From the NCBI GenBank assembly GCA_944389895.1, contig CALXOA010000128.1, positions 1 through 64,000 of the forward strand: a DNA stretch of 64,000 nt. Direction: 5' to 3'. Numbering within the stretch: the stretch's first letter is position 1; the number at the start of each line of letters is the position of its first letter. The stretch is from an uncultured Victivallis sp. (GTDB lineage: Bacteria; Verrucomicrobiota; Lentisphaeria; Victivallales; Victivallaceae). Of the stretch, positions 49,302 through 62,028 are shown piece by piece. The translations under genes and the position numbers were made by a program. The notes beneath the pieces are model-generated. The model searched no databases and was not told the origin of the DNA. It saw nothing but the letters and a program-made list of their open reading frames with translations.

Positions 49302-50630
49302 TTAGTTGATCCGCTGAAATCCGGAGACCGCGGGTGCCCCCTCCAGCGCGGCAGCAACCCGGTTCCCGCGGATCAACGAAGCAAGTTCCCCCCACACCTC
49401 ATCTACTGCATTCAGATAGGCTTCGACCGCTTCCGGGGTGTGAGCGTACATGGAATAAAACTGCATTCCCGCCAGGAAGCCGCGTTTCAACATTTCCTGC
49501 GTAAAGAAAGCCCGCCGGACATTGTGATCTTCGGCAAACGTGAAGTGCAGCATCGGCAAAATTCCGCCGATCGACAGATCGAGACCGTGTTTTTCGGCCA
49601 GCTTCCGCCAGCCCTCCGCCACCATCCGCCCCGTTTCCTGCAAATGGGACGATACATCGTTGGCGATGAATTTTTCAATCATCGCCAGAGCAGCCGCAGG
49701 ACCGGTCCGTTCAGTCCAGTTGGTGCTGGTAATGAAACTCTTCTGCGCGGCCGCCATGAACTGTTCCCGCCCGATCACGGCGGCGATCGGGAACCCATTG
49801 CCAAGCGCCTTCGAAAAGACCGCGATGTCCGGCTGCCACCCCAGCTTCAGATGCGCCCCTCCCGAACAGAGTCGAAAACCGGCGGAAATCTCATCCATAA
49901 CCAGCGGAATGCGCCGGCGCCGACAGACCTCCTGCACTTCGGCCATGAAATCAGCTTCGGGCATGTAATTGCGGATCGGCTCCATCACCACTGCCGCCAG
50001 ATTATCACCGGCCTGCTCAACGGCCGATTTCAAACTCGGGATGTCGTTGTAATGAAAGGGAAGTGCCGTACCGGCCAGACACCGGGGAACTCCGGTCGGC
50101 AACAACCCGGGAATCAGGTGTTCCCCCAGAGCGTTCTCCGTTCCCAGATTGGCAGCCAGATACCAATCCATCCAGCCATGATAACCGCAAAAAACAATGA
50201 CATCCTTTCCGGTCGCCGCCCGGACAATCCGAACGGCAACCGCCATTGCCTCTCCTCCGGAGCGGGCAAAACGCGCCATCTGCGCCCATGGGTGCAACTC
50301 GATGAGCTTCTCCGCCAATGCGACCTCTTCCGGAGGATTCAACGATGACGCGGACCCATCGGCAATCACCTCCATCACAGCGCGATTGACATCAGGATCG
50401 GCATATCCCAGAACCGTGGCACCAATTCCCCCGATGCTGAAATCAAGATAACGATTGCCATCGAGATCCACAACTTCAATTCCCTGCGCTTTTTTGAAAT
50501 ATGTCGGCCAGACCCCACGGGAAAAAAGATCAGGCCGTTTCGACAGTAACTGTGTCATGCCGGGAATGATCCGTGCGGCCTTCTTCTGAAGTTCCAGGCA
50601 ATTTGCCAGCTTAACTTTTTCTGCGTTCAT
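49302..50630 (-). CDS. Class III aminotransferase (glutamate-1-semialdehyde aminomutase-like)
   Basis: A 442-residue PLP enzyme. It has the family glycine loop SGGEAMAVAVRI, MDEISAGFR and the PLP-lysine motif FSKALGNGFPIAAV. GSA-like aminotransferases outside heme synthesis often aminate sugar-derived aldehydes. It lies in the nonulosonic acid operon beside an aldo-keto reductase and a CMP-sugar synthetase, so it may add an amino group to the nonulosonate or a precursor. The ATG at 50630 has AGGAGG 12 bases upstream and overlaps the end of the preceding gene by 20 bases. Confidence 0.88.
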   Translation of the reverse strand: MNAEKVKLANCLELQKKAARIIPGMTQLLSKRPDLFSRGVWPTYFKKAQGIEVVDLDGNRYLDFSIGGIGATVLGYADPDVNRAVMEVIADGSASSLNPPEEVALAEKLIELHPWAQMARFARSGGEAMAVAVRIVRAATGKDVIVFCGYHGWMDWYLAANLGTENALGEHLIPGLLPTGVPRCLAGTALPFHYNDIPSLKSAVEQAGDNLAAVVMEPIRNYMPEADFMAEVQEVCRRRRIPLVMDEISAGFRLCSGGAHLKLGWQPDIAVFSKALGNGFPIAAVIGREQFMAAAQKSFITSTNWTERTGPAAALAMIEKFIANDVSSHLQETGRMVAEGWRKLAEKHGLDLSIGGILPMLHFTFAEDHNVRRAFFTQEMLKRGFLAGMQFYSMYAHTPEAVEAYLNAVDEVWGELASLIRGNRVAAALEGAPAVSGFQRIN

Positions 50631-51399
50631 AAACGATCTGATCCTCCTGCTGAGATTTCCTATAACCTTCATTTCGCAAAAAACGGCAGTTCAGCCGGTC
50701 GATTTCCGGGTGCCGCTGGAGCAACGCCAGAACCTCCCGCCAGGAAAATGCGGGATTTTCCGGATAAAGAGATTCAAAAATCCGGGAAACCACTTCGAAA
50801 TCAGCGGGTTCATCAACCGTCCACCGCAATTCGGAAAAATCCCCGGTTCCGAAATGATTTCCAATACGAAACTGTTCGGGATGCGAGTAGATATAAGGCG
50901 TCACATGCTCCCGTTCGGAACGCAGCCCGGCATTCCGCCAGGCACTTTCCAGGCACGAAAAACGCATCACTTCACAGTCAAGACCATCGGGGAATGTCGG
51001 TGGATGAACATTGCTGACATAATCAAAATCCCCCTGATCAAAAAGAGCGATCGTATCATCCACCACCCCCGGATCGATCAAAGGACAATCCCCGGTAAAA
51101 CGAACGACGTTTTCCGGTCGGTAATGTCTGGCGGCCATGAAAAAACGCTCCAGTACATCATTCAGACTGCCGCGAAAACAATCCACCTTCAATGTCCGGC
51201 ACAACGCTTCCAGTGGATCATCCTGTTCATCATCGCCTGTGGCGACAATGATCCGATCCAGCCGGTGCGAACGAGCAATCCGTTCCAGTTGCAGCTCCAG
51301 CATGGGTTTTCCGCAGATAGGCCGCAGCACTTTCCCGGGTAACCGCGAAGATGACAACCGCGCCTGGACGATTCCCAGATATTTGATTTGCCGTTCCAT
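50611..51399 (-). CDS. SpsF/PseF-type cytidylyltransferase
   Basis: A 262-residue nucleotidyltransferase. The start IVQARLSSSRLPGKVL contains the CTP-binding motif, followed by FTGDCPLIDP with the metal-binding Asp and TVDEPADFEVV. SpsF-like proteins make CMP-activated nonulosonic acids (CMP-pseudaminate) from the free acid and CTP in the cytosol. In this operon it follows pseI and the aldo-keto reductase. Its C-terminal 25 residues are polar and extend into the overlap with the aminotransferase. Confidence 0.88.
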   Translation of the reverse strand: MERQIKYLGIVQARLSSSRLPGKVLRPICGKPMLELQLERIARSHRLDRIIVATGDDEQDDPLEALCRTLKVDCFRGSLNDVLERFFMAARHYRPENVVRFTGDCPLIDPGVVDDTIALFDQGDFDYVSNVHPPTFPDGLDCEVMRFSCLESAWRNAGLRSEREHVTPYIYSHPEQFRIGNHFGTGDFSELRWTVDEPADFEVVSRIFESLYPENPAFSWREVLALLQRHPEIDRLNCRFLRNEGYRKSQQEDQIVYERRKS

Positions 51400-51409
51400 C
51401 GTATTCCAA

Positions 51410-52315
51410 CTACTTTCCCGCCCGTTTCCAGAGACTCGGCATCACGATATCGGCTTCGAGATCTGTAAATTTCCGCCCGAGCTCTTCGAGAGACTCGATG
51501 TCTACGGGACGCTCGAACAACTGAATATCTTCCTTCAACTGCTCCATGTAATCCACCCCGAACACCAGATGGCTGACCGCCGGAGCCAGACGCCGCACGT
51601 ACCCCAGTGCCACTTCAACCGGAGAGAGATGACGGGCATGACAGAAGCGTTGAATTTCCGTTACCATGGGCCGCGCCCGTTTCAGGAACTCAGGGACTTC
51701 CTCTTCCGTCATCAACAGCAATCCCTGAAGGAAAGCGCTTCTGGTATGGATTCGAGTTCCATGCCGGGCAGCGAGTTCGAAAATTCCGGCACGTTCCATC
51801 CGCTGATCGCAAATGCTGCAGGGCATCTGGAGAAAATCCACCGCCGGATTTAAAATACCGGCCCGTGCTTCCTCCACCTCATAAACGGAAACCCCTGTCG
51901 CCCGGACCAGGCCTTCACGCTTTAAACCGGCCAGAGCATCTAGTTTAGCCGGATCAAAAACATATTCGGCAGTATGAAACAAAAAGACATCCAGATAATC
52001 AGTCCGCATCCGTTCCAGCGTCCGTAACACCCCGGTGCGGATCACGGAAAAATATCGCTCCTCGGGAACATCATCCAGAGAATGCGGGAGAAGTTTCGAT
52101 ATCAGGGTCAGTTTCTCCCGGGGTACAGGACTCTTTTTCAGAAAAGTTCCGACGATCTCCTCCGCGCAACCGTAGGCATCAGCCGTATCGATATTGTCAA
52201 TTCCATGTTCGACAGCGAATTCCAGCATCCGGACCGCTTCAGACTCCTTTGGTCTGCATTGTCCCCTGATCCCGTAGTCCATACCGAACTGCACAGTTCC
52301 CAGAGCCAGTTTCAT
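51410..52315 (-). CDS. Aldo/keto reductase
   Basis: A 301-residue TIM-barrel NADPH oxidoreductase. The catalytic tetrad is visible: Asp43 and Tyr48 (DTADAYG), Lys74 (ISKLL) and His114 (FLFHTAEY). It starts GTVQFGMDYGI, as in sugar-acting members found in surface-glycan loci. It lies 24 bases after pseI and 10 before the CMP-transferase gene, so a step on the nonulosonate or its precursor is likely, perhaps together with the class III aminotransferase. The exact substrate is unknown. Confidence 0.9.
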   Translation of the reverse strand: MKLALGTVQFGMDYGIRGQCRPKESEAVRMLEFAVEHGIDNIDTADAYGCAEEIVGTFLKKSPVPREKLTLISKLLPHSLDDVPEERYFSVIRTGVLRTLERMRTDYLDVFLFHTAEYVFDPAKLDALAGLKREGLVRATGVSVYEVEEARAGILNPAVDFLQMPCSICDQRMERAGIFELAARHGTRIHTRSAFLQGLLLMTEEEVPEFLKRARPMVTEIQRFCHARHLSPVEVALGYVRRLAPAVSHLVFGVDYMEQLKEDIQLFERPVDIESLEELGRKFTDLEADIVMPSLWKRAGK

Positions 52316-52339: not shown

Positions 52340-53389
52340 TCACTTGTCCGATAAAGGCCGGAATCCTTCCACATCCTCCGCAAGAAGAGGTTTTCCTCTT
52401 TCCAGCTTCCGAGATGCACGTTTTCCCAACACCGCCTCATAGTAACGCGGATGCAATCCGTCACCGGGGCGAATGCACCTGATGTTCCGTTCCGTGAAAA
52501 ATCCTCCCGCGGGAATATCCTCGCAGATGTAAACGGAACGGCGGAAAATCAATGATTTTTGCTCCGCCTCGCTCAATGCGTAACTGACCGTACCACGGGC
52601 AGCGGCGACCCGACGTCCTTCCACCACCAGTTGCGCCATCTCCTGCGGTTCCGCGGAAAAGGCACTGTCCACCCCGCCGTCCCGGCGGGAGAGCGTAAAA
52701 TGCTTTTCAATGATCTGCGCGCCAAGGGCAATCGCACCGAGCGCAACCCCGATCCCCTTTGTATGGTCGGAAAGACCGATTCCGCACTGCGGGAAACGTT
52801 TCTGCATGTCCGGGATGGTCAGAAGGTTGCTGGCCTCGGGGGGAGCCGGATAAACACTTGTACATTTCAGCAGGGAAACGGGGCCGCTCCCCTCCCGTTC
52901 CAGCACGGCAACCGCTTCGGCAATCTCTTCCGGACCAATCAACCCGACTGATAGAATCACCGGTTTTCCGGTCGCGGCAACCCGCTTCAACAACGGGATG
53001 TCTCCATTTTCAAACGCGGCGATCTTATAGATCGGAACTCCCAGTTTTTCCAGAAAATCCACAGAGGAGACATCAAACGGCGTGGAAAACCCGATGATCC
53101 CCCGCTCCCGGCAACGTTTCAGAATCGGCTCATGCCACTCCCAGGGCATGGCAGCTTCGCAATACAACTCGTAAAGTGTCCGCCCACACCATAGACTGGA
53201 GGGGTCTTTGATCAGAAAATTACCGGAACGGGTATCCAATGTCATTGTATCTGCGGTATAAGTCTGCAACTTCAAAGCATCGACACCGGCTTCAGCCGCA
53301 GCATCCACAATCCGCAATGCCCGCTCCAGCGAACCATTGTGATTTCCGGACATCTCCGCGACAACGAACACTCCATCATTCCGCATCAT
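52340..53389 (-). CDS. pseI: Pseudaminic acid synthase
   Basis: A 349-residue NeuB-family synthase. It condenses phosphoenolpyruvate with 2,4-diacetamido-trideoxy-altrose (or a relative) to give the nonulosonic acid. The barrel has AEMSGNHNGSLERAL, KLQTYTADTMTL and IGLSDHTKG with the PEP/metal residues, then IIEKHFTL and DSAFS. The C-terminal SAF antifreeze-like domain begins near residue 280 (RRSVYICEDIPAG) and caps the active site. The start at 53389 (or the next codon) overlaps the upstream fusion gene by 14 bases. Confidence 0.92.
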   Translation of the reverse strand: MMRNDGVFVVAEMSGNHNGSLERALRIVDAAAEAGVDALKLQTYTADTMTLDTRSGNFLIKDPSSLWCGRTLYELYCEAAMPWEWHEPILKRCRERGIIGFSTPFDVSSVDFLEKLGVPIYKIAAFENGDIPLLKRVAATGKPVILSVGLIGPEEIAEAVAVLEREGSGPVSLLKCTSVYPAPPEASNLLTIPDMQKRFPQCGIGLSDHTKGIGVALGAIALGAQIIEKHFTLSRRDGGVDSAFSAEPQEMAQLVVEGRRVAAARGTVSYALSEAEQKSLIFRRSVYICEDIPAGGFFTERNIRCIRPGDGLHPRYYEAVLGKRASRKLERGKPLLAEDVEGFRPLSDK

Positions 53390-54596
53390 AATACAACCTG
53401 AAGAAATCACGCTCTTGTGCAACCACCCGAAATCCGGCCCGCTGAAAACAGACCAGCGACGCTGCATTTTCCTTTTTGATCTTCGCCACGATCGACTCAC
53501 CCGGAAATTCCGACCTGAAACGGCGGCAACCGGCAGCCAGAATCACGCTGCCGCAGGACCTGCCGCGAAAAGGCGCACTCAAACTGAAGCTGACGATTGC
53601 CTCATCTGCGGATCTTTCAGGCTGAAACCGTATCTGCCCGACAAATTCACCGACTGTATTTCGAACGATGTAAAAACGCCCCCCCACCTCTCCGAGCCTC
53701 TCGGCATACCAGCGACAATGCGTTTTCCAATCGATCTTCCCGCTCTGAAAAGAATTGGCACGAACCAGTTCATCGTTGGCAAGCTCAAACACAACACGGC
53801 AATCTTCCGGTGACGCCGGATTCAAAACAAACTCAAACCGCCGGAAGAAATTACAATCCTCACGAAAATCCCGGAGTTCTCCCGGGACCGATTTCACGGT
53901 CTCCAGCGTCACGCGGCTGGAATAAGGAAGCCCGGCAATAATCCGTTCGACAGGCAATTCTCCGGCACCGAGGTGAATATGGGAATCCTGAACCGCATGG
54001 ATGGAGTCAAGGTCACTCAGATGAAACATCGCAGGCTCAAACTTCATCAGCTCTTCGACATATTCATAAGGTTCACGGTGCAGGAAGTTCGCCGCGCAGA
54101 CCGCATGCACGAAATCCAGACAGAAACCACATCCAGTGTATTCCATCACCTGGTGTAACTCCTCCGGCGTACTGCCACGACACTCTTTCGCTGCACAAAT
54201 CGAAGGAACCGGAACGCACGGTTTGTTTTCAATCAACGCCCGCGACTCCCGGAAAGAAGCCAGCTGTAGTGCGGTTTCCTCGATCGCCCCGTCACAACCA
54301 CCATGAAAGATAATGTACGGAGTTTGCAGACGATCAGCAAACTGTTTTACCTCACCATACTTTTCGAGGTTGTCTCTCCGCAACTCCCGCAGTGCCAGAT
54401 TGAAACCATGTGCCGAGTGTGGAGCGTGGATCACAAACGGATAGGGTTCCTTCTCCCAGGCGCTCAGAGCCGGCAGCGATCCCGGGACCACATACAACTC
54501 GACATAATCGAAAATTCCCTGACGATAGAGTCTCGTAGCCTCTTCGTGATAACAATCGAAATTCGTCGACCAGAGCTTTAAGCCGATTCGATGCAT
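53376..54596 (-). CDS. Fusion of an AP-endonuclease-like TIM barrel and a PseH-like N-acetyltransferase
   Basis: A 406-residue two-domain protein. Residues about 1-245 form a xylose-isomerase/AP-endonuclease-2 barrel. It keeps what looks like the nine metal ligands of endonuclease IV: His57, His98, Glu123, Asp161, His164, His192, Asp204, His206 and Glu232. Residues about 255-406 are a GNAT domain with NDELVRANSF and DWKTHCRWYAERL, very like the acetyltransferase (PseH/SpsD) of pseudaminic acid synthesis. The gene sits between pseC and pseI, exactly where acetylation and UDP removal (PseH, PseG) are needed. No PseG is present in the window, so the barrel may replace it. That is a hypothesis. 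Confidence 0.85.
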   Translation of the reverse strand: MHRIGLKLWSTNFDCYHEEATRLYRQGIFDYVELYVVPGSLPALSAWEKEPYPFVIHAPHSAHGFNLALRELRRDNLEKYGEVKQFADRLQTPYIIFHGGCDGAIEETALQLASFRESRALIENKPCVPVPSICAAKECRGSTPEELHQVMEYTGCGFCLDFVHAVCAANFLHREPYEYVEELMKFEPAMFHLSDLDSIHAVQDSHIHLGAGELPVERIIAGLPYSSRVTLETVKSVPGELRDFREDCNFFRRFEFVLNPASPEDCRVVFELANDELVRANSFQSGKIDWKTHCRWYAERLGEVGGRFYIVRNTVGEFVGQIRFQPERSADEAIVSFSLSAPFRGRSCGSVILAAGCRRFRSEFPGESIVAKIKKENAASLVCFQRAGFRVVAQERDFFRLYYDAE

Positions 54597-55732
54597 CGCT
54601 TCAATGCTCCACAGATATACTCCAGATCCGCCGCGGTCAGATCCGGATAGAGCGGCAGACTGACTTCCCGCCGGTAGAACTCCTCCGCCACAGGGAAGTC
54701 ACCCGCACTATATCCGAATTTCCGCCGATAGTAAGGCTGGAGATGAACCGGAATGTAATGAACCTGCAGATGAAGGCCGGCACCTTTCAGTCGCTCGAAC
54801 AACTCCGGCTTCGAATAACTCCGCCCGGAAAAATCGACCAGCAGAGGGCAGAGGTGAAAACAGGCCTCTGAAAAAGGCCGTTCACTCAATAAAGAGACGC
54901 CGGACAGGGCCGCCAGCACCTCGCGGTAGAACGCCACGATCTCCCGACGACGGCGCCGGAACTGCCCGATCCGCTTCAGCTGGGAGCGACCGAGCGCTGC
55001 CTGAAGGTCGTTCATTCGATAATTGACCCCCAGATCCTGCATCTCATAATACCATGGCCCGTCATTCCGCTCCAACCGCTCCGGATCTCGGGTCACACCA
55101 TGGGAACGAAGCATCAGCAGTCGTTCATACACTCCCGGATCATTGGTCGTGACAGCCCCCCCCTCCCCGGTGGTGATCGTCTTGACTGGATGAAATGAAA
55201 ACACGGTACAGTCGGAATAACGGCAACTGCCGACTTTTTCTCCGCGGTATTCCGAACCGATCGCATGGGCGGCGTCTTCGACAACTCGTAAGCCATGTTT
55301 CCGGGCGATGCCGGAAACAGCTTCCATATCGCAGGATTGACCGGCGTAATGGACCGGCACAATCACCCGGGTATGCGGAGTGATCGCCGCTTCCAGCTTT
55401 GCCGGATCGAGATTTCCCGTGTCCGGTTCGATATCGACGAAACGGACGGCTGCACCGGTGTAAAGCATGCAGTTCGCCGACGAAAGGAAGGTGTTGGGCG
55501 AAGTGATTCCTTCCTCCCCTGCCCCGACTCCGAGTGCCAGCATGGCAAGATGAAGTCCGGCGGTTGCGGAGGAGACCGCCACACAATATTTCGCACCGGT
55601 ATAACGACACAGCTCCGCCTCGAAAGCGGCGACCTCCGGCCCCTGAGTCAGGAAATCGGATTGCAGAACCCCGCGGACCGCCTCGATGTCCTCCCCGGAA
55701 ATGCTCTGCCGCCCGTAACCATACCGTTTCAT
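54578..55732 (-). CDS. pseC: UDP-4-amino-4,6-dideoxy-N-acetyl-altrosamine transaminase
   Basis: A 384-residue DegT/DnrJ/EryC1 aminotransferase. The PLP lysine is Lys184 (FHPVKTITTGEGG), and GITSPNTFLSSANC and DAAHAIGSEY are typical for PseC. It aminates the 4-keto product of PseB with glutamate. The ATG at 55732 has GGAG eight bases upstream; the GTG two codons earlier overlaps the pseB stop and is less likely. The 3' end overlaps the fusion gene start by 19 bases. Confidence 0.93.
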   Translation of the reverse strand: MKRYGYGRQSISGEDIEAVRGVLQSDFLTQGPEVAAFEAELCRYTGAKYCVAVSSATAGLHLAMLALGVGAGEEGITSPNTFLSSANCMLYTGAAVRFVDIEPDTGNLDPAKLEAAITPHTRVIVPVHYAGQSCDMEAVSGIARKHGLRVVEDAAHAIGSEYRGEKVGSCRYSDCTVFSFHPVKTITTGEGGAVTTNDPGVYERLLMLRSHGVTRDPERLERNDGPWYYEMQDLGVNYRMNDLQAALGRSQLKRIGQFRRRRREIVAFYREVLAALSGVSLLSERPFSEACFHLCPLLVDFSGRSYSKPELFERLKGAGLHLQVHYIPVHLQPYYRRKFGYSAGDFPVAEEFYRREVSLPLYPDLTAADLEYICGALKRCIESA

Positions 55733-55734
55733 CC

Positions 55735-56730
55735 TCACAACTCCTGAATCATGCGGCGCATGTCATCCACAGAGAGCCATTGCGTATTGTTCCCCGAATG
55801 GTACTCGAAATCGTCGGCCACCGCCCGCGCTTCGGAATAACGACTGCGGTCAAAACCGAAAAACTCCATTTCAGGAAGGATGATATAGTATTTTTCCAGT
55901 TCGATCGTGTTCCGGGCATCTTCCTTCGTAATCATCTGTTCGTGAATTTTCTCGCCGGGACGGATGCCGACCTCAACGGTTTTCACGCCGGGAGCCACCG
56001 CTTCCGCCAGATCCCGGATGTACATCGAAGGAATTTTCCGCACGAAAAGTTCACCGCCCTGCATCGTCTGAAGAGCCTCGAGAACCATCTCCACCGCCTG
56101 TTCAAGCCGAAGCCAGAAACGGGTCATCTTGTAATCGGTGATCGGCAACTCCGTCGCGCCTTTTCTGACCAGTTCCCGGAAAAACGGAATCACCGAACCA
56201 CGCGACCCGGCAACGTTCCCGTAGCGCACGACGGCAAAGCGGGTTCCGGTTCCTCCCGCATAGGAATTTCCGGCAATGAACAATTTGTCGGAACACAACT
56301 TGGTTGCGCCGTAGAGATTCAGTGGAGCACACGCCTTGTCGGTACTGAGTGCAACCACCCGCTGGACACCGCGATCAATCGCGGCATCAATCACATTCTG
56401 GGCCCCGAGCACATTGGTTTTCACCGCTTCAAAAGGATTGTATTCACATGCGGGCACCTGTTTCAGCGCCGCAGCATGCACCACGATATCGACCCGGTTG
56501 AAGGCCCGCATCAACCGTTCCCGATCACGCACATCCCCTATGAAAAAACGCAATTTCTCCTCGAATCGCCGGAATTCGGGCAGATTTGCCATCTCAAACT
56601 GTTTAAATTCATCGCGGGAAAAAACAATCACCCGCTCCAGATGGGGATAGTGCTCCAGAATATACCGGATAAATTTTTTCCCGAAGGATCCGGTCCCGCC
56701 GGTGACCAAAACGGTCTTGCCATTCAACAT
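55735..56730 (-). CDS. pseB: UDP-N-acetylglucosamine 4,6-dehydratase (inverting)
   Basis: The first enzyme of pseudaminic acid synthesis, an extended short-chain dehydrogenase of 331 residues. NAD-binding VTGGTGSFGKKF is at the N-terminus, and the catalytic Asp131, Lys132 and Tyr140 lie in STDKACAPLNLYGATK, as in the inverting FlaA1/PseB group. It oxidises, dehydrates and inverts C5 of UDP-GlcNAc. GGAGG ten bases before the ATG supports the start. It heads the ten-gene operon with promoter at 56805-56833. Confidence 0.95.
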   Translation of the reverse strand: MLNGKTVLVTGGTGSFGKKFIRYILEHYPHLERVIVFSRDEFKQFEMANLPEFRRFEEKLRFFIGDVRDRERLMRAFNRVDIVVHAAALKQVPACEYNPFEAVKTNVLGAQNVIDAAIDRGVQRVVALSTDKACAPLNLYGATKLCSDKLFIAGNSYAGGTGTRFAVVRYGNVAGSRGSVIPFFRELVRKGATELPITDYKMTRFWLRLEQAVEMVLEALQTMQGGELFVRKIPSMYIRDLAEAVAPGVKTVEVGIRPGEKIHEQMITKEDARNTIELEKYYIILPEMEFFGFDRSRYSEARAVADDFEYHSGNNTQWLSVDDMRRMIQEL

Positions 56731-57015: not shown

Positions 57016-58032
57016 ATGGCTTATACGATCGAGAAATGCCGGAGATGCGGTTTTATTCTGAACACCCGTCCCAATCTGAAGAGTGTCGATGGAGTCTGTT
57101 CCGCCTGTCTGAACCACGACAAGAAAAAAAACATTGATTTCCTTTCCAGACAACGCTGGTTGACGGATTACATTGCAACCAATAAAACCAATCCGAGATA
57201 TGATTGCCTCGTTGCCGTTTCCGGCGGTAAAGATTCCACAACCATAGTCCGAAAGCTCTTTGAAGACCACGGAGTGAAAAAAGCCCTGCTGGTCAACGTC
57301 ACGGAAGAGTTCACCCATACCAGAACCGGGATTCACAATCTGAACAACATCGTCCAGCGCTACAACTGTGATCTTCTTACGTACAGAATCAATCCACATG
57401 AACTGGCGGAACATATGGTCAGGGAACTGACTGAATATCTCCATCCACTGAAATGGCTTGAGGAACAGATCTATCAGATCCCGCTAGAGGTCGCCCGTAA
57501 TTACGGAATCAAACTGGTCTTTTACGGCGAAAATGCGGAATTTGAATATGGGTCTGCGGAGTCGCTGGATATTTTTCACCCCGCCTCCGACGATCAGTTG
57601 AAGGTCATTTACATGGGGGCAATCTACCCGTATGCGGCCCAGGAATGGTACAAGATGGCCCAGGAAGTCGGTTTTCTTGATCTGAATTACTTCAATGAAT
57701 GGCAACGGCACGGTCAGATCGAAAATTACTCTCAAGTCGACAGCATCGGTTACAATATGGGAGTATGGACGAAATTCGTAAAATTCGGTTTTCAGCGGGT
57801 CAGCGATATGGCATGCCGCTTCGTCCGAGACGGCGTCATGTCGTATGAACAGGGCCAATCGCTGATTAAACAGTATGATCACGTCTGTGACCCCAGTTCA
57901 AAACGTGACTTCTGCAGAACCATCGGCATCACCGAAGAGTATTTCGACGCCATGGTTGACAAGCACGCGAATCGTGACCTGGTCGTCAAAGACATCAACG
58001 GCGTCTGGCGGCGCAAAGATCTGCTGGACTGA
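57016..58032 (+). CDS. pseA: N-acetyl sugar amidotransferase (PseA/WbpG family)
   Basis: A 338-residue protein. It has an N-terminal zinc finger (Cys8, Cys11, Cys28, Cys31) and an ATP-pyrophosphatase loop SGGKDS at 69-74. PseA and WbpG turn an acetamido group of a nonulosonate or sugar into acetamidino using ammonia. Their presence next to pseB-pseC-pseI suggests that the final sugar is an acetamidino-pseudaminic acid. No HisH/HisF-type partner is nearby, as for Campylobacter PseA. Base composition is visibly more AT-rich than the housekeeping regions. Confidence 0.88.
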   Translation: MAYTIEKCRRCGFILNTRPNLKSVDGVCSACLNHDKKKNIDFLSRQRWLTDYIATNKTNPRYDCLVAVSGGKDSTTIVRKLFEDHGVKKALLVNVTEEFTHTRTGIHNLNNIVQRYNCDLLTYRINPHELAEHMVRELTEYLHPLKWLEEQIYQIPLEVARNYGIKLVFYGENAEFEYGSAESLDIFHPASDDQLKVIYMGAIYPYAAQEWYKMAQEVGFLDLNYFNEWQRHGQIENYSQVDSIGYNMGVWTKFVKFGFQRVSDMACRFVRDGVMSYEQGQSLIKQYDHVCDPSSKRDFCRTIGITEEYFDAMVDKHANRDLVVKDINGVWRRKDLLD

Positions 58033-61135: not shown

Positions 61136-61157
61136 CCCGGGGGCTCGCCGGGCTTTT
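61136..61157 (+). terminator. Possible terminator between convergent genes
   Basis: CCCGG (61136-61140) pairs with CCGGG (61148-61152), followed by CTTTT, within the 58 bases between two convergent genes. Confidence 0.35.
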
Positions 61158-62028
61158 ATCGGACTTTCCCGCTTTCACCGGAAATGGAATGGATCAGATA
61201 CTCCCCCGTTTTGTGAGCCAGGCGCAGAAAATCCGGCAGAAGCACATCCGGGAACCGTTCATAGACGAACTCCCACGTGAACTCACCGGGATACCCGGCA
61301 TTTTTCAGAATTTCCATGACGCGTTCCCAGTTCAGATTCCCGAAAAACGCAAGTTTATGCTGATCTACTCCATAGGAGTTGTCATGCATGTGTGTGCACG
61401 TGACGTAAGGCGCCAGCTTTTCGAGTTCATCAATGCAATGTTCCCCGTAGGCACACTGCGCGTGGCCGGAATCCCAGCAGCAGCCGATGCCGGAACCGGG
61501 AAAACTTTCAATCACCGCGATCACTTCCTCTGTTTTCGAGGTGAAACGGGAACGCCCTCCGGCCGGCGTTTCGAAGCCATCCTCAAACAGATTTTCGATC
61601 GCCGGGCGGATTCCCGCCTGCGCACACAAATCCACGACCGGCGCGAGATACTCCCGCGTTTTCCGGAGAATCCGTTCAAAATCAAAGGAGTCCGGTTCCC
61701 GGTATTCATCTGCATGGATCACGAAAAATTCCGCCCCCAGGATGGACGCCGCCCTGACGGCACGCGGCGCATACTCGGCGAAAAGCTTCAGTCCCCCCTC
61801 CTTGTACCTGAAAAACGGACAATGAGCCTGATGAACTTCCACTCCACAGGAGTCCATCAACTCCCGCGCGGCCTCTGCCTGCTCACGCCAGTCCTCCTCC
61901 ACGACCGGAGTCAGATAATCCACAATGGAAAACCCGGCATCCCGGCAAAGCGCGACGGCTTCTCCCAGCGAACGATCCGGCGCATTCCGTTTCTTCAGGA
62001 CAAAACCCAGATTGATTCCTTGACGCAT
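61156..62028 (-). CDS. Sugar phosphate isomerase/epimerase (TIM barrel)
   Basis: A 290-residue xylose-isomerase-like TIM barrel. Metal-site motifs in order are FVIHADEY, AIENLFEDG (Glu), CCWDSGHAQ (Asp, His), THMHDN (His) and FTWEFVYE (Glu). It is one of several such proteins in the window. AGGAG lies nine bases before the ATG and a consensus promoter lies at 62072-62100. It is a single-gene unit, converging on the GNAT-GNAT-GrpB gene. Confidence 0.9.
   Translation of the reverse strand: MRQGINLGFVLKKRNAPDRSLGEAVALCRDAGFSIVDYLTPVVEEDWREQAEAARELMDSCGVEVHQAHCPFFRYKEGGLKLFAEYAPRAVRAASILGAEFFVIHADEYREPDSFDFERILRKTREYLAPVVDLCAQAGIRPAIENLFEDGFETPAGGRSRFTSKTEEVIAVIESFPGSGIGCCWDSGHAQCAYGEHCIDELEKLAPYVTCTHMHDNSYGVDQHKLAFFGNLNWERVMEILKNAGYPGEFTWEFVYERFPDVLLPDFLRLAHKTGEYLIHSISGESGKVR

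Follow-up and report, generated by a model that had tools for sequence, protein, structure and literature searches.

Results

Operon architecture and the fusion gene

The window, a stretch of 64,000 nt from an uncultured Victivallis sp. whose genome (3.76 Mb, 131 contigs) is 94.4% complete, carries on its reverse strand four consecutive genes of pseudaminic acid synthesis. These are pseB, encoding the inverting UDP-GlcNAc 4,6-dehydratase (55735..56730; TIGR03589, 518.2 bits, cut-off 407.75), pseC, encoding the aminotransferase (54578..55738; TIGR03588, 498.4 bits, cut-off 423.5), an uninterrupted open reading frame of 406 aa (53376..54596) and pseI, encoding pseudaminic acid synthase (52340..53389, with ATG 53389 taken as start; TIGR03586, 438.9 bits, cut-off 340.25). 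Neighbouring genes overlap by 4 nt (pseB/pseC), 19 nt (pseC end and start of the third frame) and 14 nt (its stop and the pseI start), so that the four can be regarded as a single tight unit, and with PseB, PseC and PseI all above their NCBIfam cut-offs the pathway is assigned to pseudaminic acid. Downstream on the same strand follow an aldo/keto reductase (51410..52315; PF00248), an SpsF/KdsB-like cytidylyltransferase (50611..51399; PF02348) and a class-III aminotransferase (49302..50672; PF00202), the first and last of which recur in other loci of the kind described below. Canonical PseF was not found in the source genome by profile search (best score 39.2 bits, cut-off 205.7), and the cytidylyltransferase likely takes over the PseF step. 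The divergent neighbour on the forward strand (57016..58032) is a PseA/WbuX-like N-acetyl sugar amidotransferase, which scores below the cut-off of its family (TIGR03573, 199.8 bits, cut-off 203.2).

The original prediction had read the 406-aa frame as a TIM barrel joined to a GNAT domain between pseC and pseI, and both the Pfam matches and the profiles of the neighbours agree with it. PF01261 (AP_endonuc_2) matches residues 53–253 (33.2 bits, cut-off 31.1) and PF13302 (GNAT) residues 257–390 (39.5 bits, cut-off 25.4). From the Pfam match, the ligand set and the predicted fold, we place the barrel at residues 1–252 (53841..54596, reverse strand) and the PseH-like N-acetyltransferase domain at residues 253–406 plus stop (53376..53840, reverse strand). 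This barrel family occurs in one copy in the source genome. A second, ordinary PF01261 barrel at 61156–62028 (reverse strand, 88 bits) apparently bears no relation to the operon, and a second, distant NeuB/PseI-like gene (131 bits) is found in the genome on contig C38 (47856–48845).

Mutual exclusion of barrel and PseG in the order of the window

It had been noted from the window that no PseG was visible, and this held for the whole source genome at its 94.4% completeness on 131 contigs, where no match to TIGR03590 was found at E ≤ 0.001; the fusion protein itself does not match this model either. Among 137 genomes of the same order, PseI scores above cut-off in 11. Eight of these 11 have a PseG match, six above cut-off and two below (G068 with 83.8 bits, G087 with 77.3 bits), while the three without PseG, namely the source genome (G000), G064 and G071, are the only barrel carriers among them (Fisher p = 0.006, with relatives treated as independent).

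The six genomes with PseG above cut-off (G080, G083, G085, G089, G065 and G073) contain frames of 488–562 aa with PseG at the N-terminus and GNAT at the C-terminus, directly followed by pseI in five of them. The gene order pseB-pseC-...-PseG/GNAT-pseI, as seen at locus L022, thus has its counterpart in the order pseB-pseC-barrel/GNAT-pseI of the window, and the GNAT family of the window fusion is the same one that is fused to PseG in these sister genomes. G064 carries a second barrel-GNAT fusion together with pseI, and G071 carries barrel and GNAT as separate genes within one pse cluster; in view of these two genomes, a chance fusion or a frame artefact in the window was rejected.

Distribution of the barrel across phyla

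Across some 85,000 species scanned, 28 barrel loci from at least eight phyla were found, with taxa including Melainabacteria, Alphaproteobacteria, Desulfovibrionaceae, Elusimicrobia, Verrucomicrobia, Omnitrophica, Lentisphaerae, Kiritimatiellota and Bacillota. The barrel lies inside a pse cluster in 19 of the 28, usually with pseI or a GNAT-pseI fusion as the next gene, and PseG is absent from all of these 19 clusters. When 29 barrel genomes were checked as a whole, PseI was above cut-off in 19 and PseG in none of the 19, a count to be read with regard to the fact that many barrel carriers are gut MAGs and most genomes surveyed are incomplete MAGs, in which PseG could be hidden. Ten weak PseG matches in barrel genomes were checked further: nine reach much higher scores against MurG or diglucosyl-diacylglycerol synthase, and one, in the Pelotomaculum genome G148, is genuine and adjoins a different PseI. 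PseI and barrel reside on separate contigs in G139 and G146.

The same association was observed in a second order, the Gastranaerophilales, where PseI is above cut-off in 11 of 212 genomes. The barrel is present in 9 of these 11 versus 6 of the 201 others (Fisher p = 1e-10, relatives again treated as independent), and PseG was found in none of the 11. Neither PseG nor barrel accompanies PseI in G328, where the contig breaks off within a formyltransferase gene immediately preceding pseI, or in G261, where pseI (locus L117) lies beside PdxA-like and ATP-grasp-like genes and a frame of 1878 aa, an arrangement that possibly represents a third route. The expectation that the domain pair always sits beside pse genes has to be reworded: the barrel marks the pse clusters of PseG-less genomes in two orders and many phyla, but the pair was seen in two fusions only, and a stand-alone barrel gene is the commoner arrangement.

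The base of the barrel tree is poorly resolved, and a single origin of the pse-linked barrels is consequently not claimed. Two clusters (L056, L063) contain two distinct barrels each. An origin from viruses or plasmids was rejected, as nothing was retrieved from plasmids or in either of two viral scans; the one record filed as phage (Bacteriophage sp. MT838706, L096), which holds a barrel relative along with genes read as rhamnose-pathway genes, looks like bacterial DNA. Barrels with all nine putative metal ligands (see below) also occur in four Akkermansia genomes without PseI (L058, L060, L061, L073) and, adjoining an M55 peptidase, in three Lentisphaerae loci (L067, L070, L074). These barrels likely have functions other than in the pseudaminic acid pathway, and owing to such relatives outside pse loci, membership in the barrel family alone is no proof of a PseG-like function.

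The acyl step and companion genes

The GNAT domain had been described as very like PseH. It is PseH-like, but with 29.5 bits against TIGR03585 it stays far from the cut-off of 93.1, so that the stronger wording does not hold. A fold search with the model of the fusion returned GNAT folds for this domain, whose acetyl-CoA loop has the sequence RGRSCG instead of the RGxGxG/A found in most relatives. The GNAT tree has too little support to show whether barrel and PseG were swapped on one GNAT lineage.

In the barrel loci, the acyltransferase is either a GNAT protein, which stands by itself or is joined to pseI or to the barrel, or a formyltransferase (PF00551), the latter replacing GNAT in L052, L056, L125 and L127. 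The barrel is kept across this switch, also in the sparse clusters L052 and L055, the former being a minimal cluster of the order pseB-pseC-barrel-formyltransferase-pseI. Since the barrel stays constant while the acyltransferase varies, it probably performs an acyl-independent core step, as PseG does, and the minimal clusters offer little room for a different hydrolase.

Other components are less constant. PseF may sometimes be replaced by an SpsF-like gene, and the aldo/keto reductase and class-III aminotransferase are variably present. Where these two occur (49302–52315 in the window; L051, L054, L063, L066, L071, L072, L118, L120, L122, L123 and L125), often with an additional GNAT or methyltransferase, they accompany the barrel and PseF/SpsF, which suggests a sugar modification. 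Such tailoring genes near the barrel, together with the existence of relatives outside pse loci, could be taken to mean that the barrel is itself a tailoring enzyme, either a multinuclear iron oxidase similar to MbnB or TglH or a producer of an N-acyl donor, with another, unrecognised hydrolase releasing UDP. MbnB is among the fold matches, and 13 of the 31 members of alignment A4 weakly match the MNIO family (PF05114), the window protein reaching 12.5 bits at a cut-off of 25. We nevertheless consider this reading very unlikely, since the barrel persists when tailoring genes and acyltransferase change, and its presence pattern is matched by no other gene that we annotated.

Predicted fold and putative metal site

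The barrel model is of high confidence (pLDDT 96.5, pTM 0.93) and, with TTHB071, MJ1311, MbnB and endonuclease IV (EndoIV) among the best Foldseek matches, bears out the EndoIV-type fold at the level of the fold; the full-length model comprises one barrel and one GNAT domain. PF01261 is matched by all 31 members of A4, and a profile of the family retrieves EndoIV chains from the PDB down to E 2.5e-13 (5zhz), with the ligand motifs aligned except near E123. The full EndoIV-type ligand set that had been read from the window sequence is indeed complete: H57, H98, E123, D161, H164, H192, D204, H206 and E232 are all present in the window barrel, identical in all 30 full-length relatives of A4 and also invariant in 21 ORF reads from the second order, some of which are overlapping or duplicate fetches of a locus. 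At the level of strand positions, the model agrees with a putative set of nine ligands for three metals. The spacing H..H..E..DxxH..H..DxH..E corresponds to the metal ligands listed for EndoIV from C. pneumoniae (PMC13113976).

PF01261 also includes sugar isomerases and D-tagatose 3-epimerase, and both kinds appear among the Foldseek matches. The barrel could accordingly be a sugar isomerase or epimerase which diverts an intermediate to another nonulosonic acid, while an unlinked enzyme releases UDP; the accessory genes of the barrel loci, suggestive of modified products, would fit such a role, and epimerisation had been considered from the outset. Single-metal epimerases, however, use four of the nine ligands, all of which are invariant here, and the curated families closest to the A4 members are DNase IV (26 of 31) and the CbiR phosphodiesterase (19 of 31), with hardly any epimerase model. 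PseI is moreover above its Pse-specific cut-off in 19 barrel genomes, and an epimerase would account neither for the complementarity of barrel and PseG nor for the release of UDP. The idea is thereby weakened, and it is highly improbable that it describes the barrel correctly.

Discussion

We propose that the barrel is probably a non-homologous replacement of PseG, namely a member of the endonuclease-IV (AP_endonuc_2) superfamily that hydrolyses the UDP-sugar in a metal-dependent manner. This proposal builds on the domain architecture, the conserved slot in the operon, the absence of PseG, the mutual exclusion of the two and the invariance of the nine ligands, complemented by a confidently modelled fold. 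The original prediction had suggested a metal-dependent substitute for PseG, and as far as sequence and model can tell, the genome-wide PseG search, the distribution of the barrel and its predicted fold support it.

In the proposed pathway, PseB followed by PseC would provide the substrate for 4-N-acetylation by the GNAT domain, the barrel would then remove UDP from UDP-2,4-diacetamido-2,4,6-trideoxy-L-altrose, and PseI would join the free sugar with phosphoenolpyruvate. The fusion of barrel and acetyltransferase would mirror the PseG-PseH fusions of the sister genomes, and could serve to hand over the product between consecutive steps. While we regard UDP release as the likely reaction of the barrel, its chemistry is assigned more tentatively. 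A metal-activated water might attack the beta-phosphorus of the UDP-sugar, yielding UDP and the free sugar by P–O cleavage. Full nine-ligand barrels such as EndoIV hydrolyse phosphodiesters, and epimerases keep four ligands; the nine-ligand set and the precedent of CbiR, which acts on a small-molecule phosphodiester, favour attack at the beta-phosphorus. Cleavage of the C–O bond instead of P–O may also take place.

Attack at the alpha-phosphorus would instead yield UMP and sugar 1-phosphate, from which a separate phosphatase would have to free the sugar for PseI. Known metal-dependent UDP-sugar pyrophosphatases such as UshA and LpxH attack at the alpha-phosphorus, and the phosphodiester hydrolysis by EndoIV and CbiR (PMC7733943) is in line with it as well. 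A conserved phosphatase, however, was not seen in the barrel clusters, the minimal ones included, although a housekeeping phosphatase could serve, and we rate this variant as unlikely. Release of UDP by the barrel remains our preferred reading.

Pathway annotation recognises nonulosonic acid synthesis by six known enzymes. If our proposal is true, many gut-associated genomes which look incomplete by this measure can make pseudaminic acid, the pathway possesses a second fold and mechanism for UDP-sugar hydrolysis, and proteins labelled 'sugar isomerase/epimerase' gain a concrete, testable reaction. One step in the synthesis of the surface sugar pseudaminic acid seems to have evolved twice. Beyond this, the barrel could perhaps constitute a new class of UDP-sugar hydrolases, combining the EndoIV fold with a trinuclear metal site and P–O cleavage, which replaced PseG in many phyla.

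Comparison with known systems

PseG, which releases UDP in the described pathways, has a GT-B fold, is a relative of MurG and cuts the C1–O bond. In Caulobacter crescentus lacking flmD, RkpO restores both motility and the glycosylation of flagellin, and the same study used a synthetic flm operon in E. coli K-12 (PMC7591256). In sequence and fold, PseG is unrelated to the barrel, which is a TIM barrel and probably metal-dependent. In the open-access literature that we searched, we found no prior description of such a barrel in the PseG slot. The acinetaminic acid genes were considered as a precedent and rejected, as they are additions to a legionaminic pathway.

With endonuclease IV (Nfo, DNase IV), which gives the best PDB profile matches, the window barrel shares the fold and the nine-ligand pattern, but it stays far below the DNase IV cut-off (best 12.7 bits versus 244) and lies in a sugar operon rather than in a repair context. 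The MNIO family (MbnB/TglH/ChrH), retrieved by the fold search, is a related multinuclear metal barrel, which however acts on peptides with partner proteins, and for which the window protein is below the Pfam cut-off. CbiR, a cobamide-remodelling, small-molecule phosphodiesterase, belongs to the AP_endonuc_2 superfamily as well (NF041277; PMC7733943); its profile weakly matches 19 of the 31 barrel relatives and, at E ≤ 0.01, not the window barrel, and its genes stand in a cobamide context in contrast to the pse context described here. In its place in the operon, in its PseH-like GNAT partner and in the pathway step at issue, the window fusion resembles the PseG-PseH fusions.
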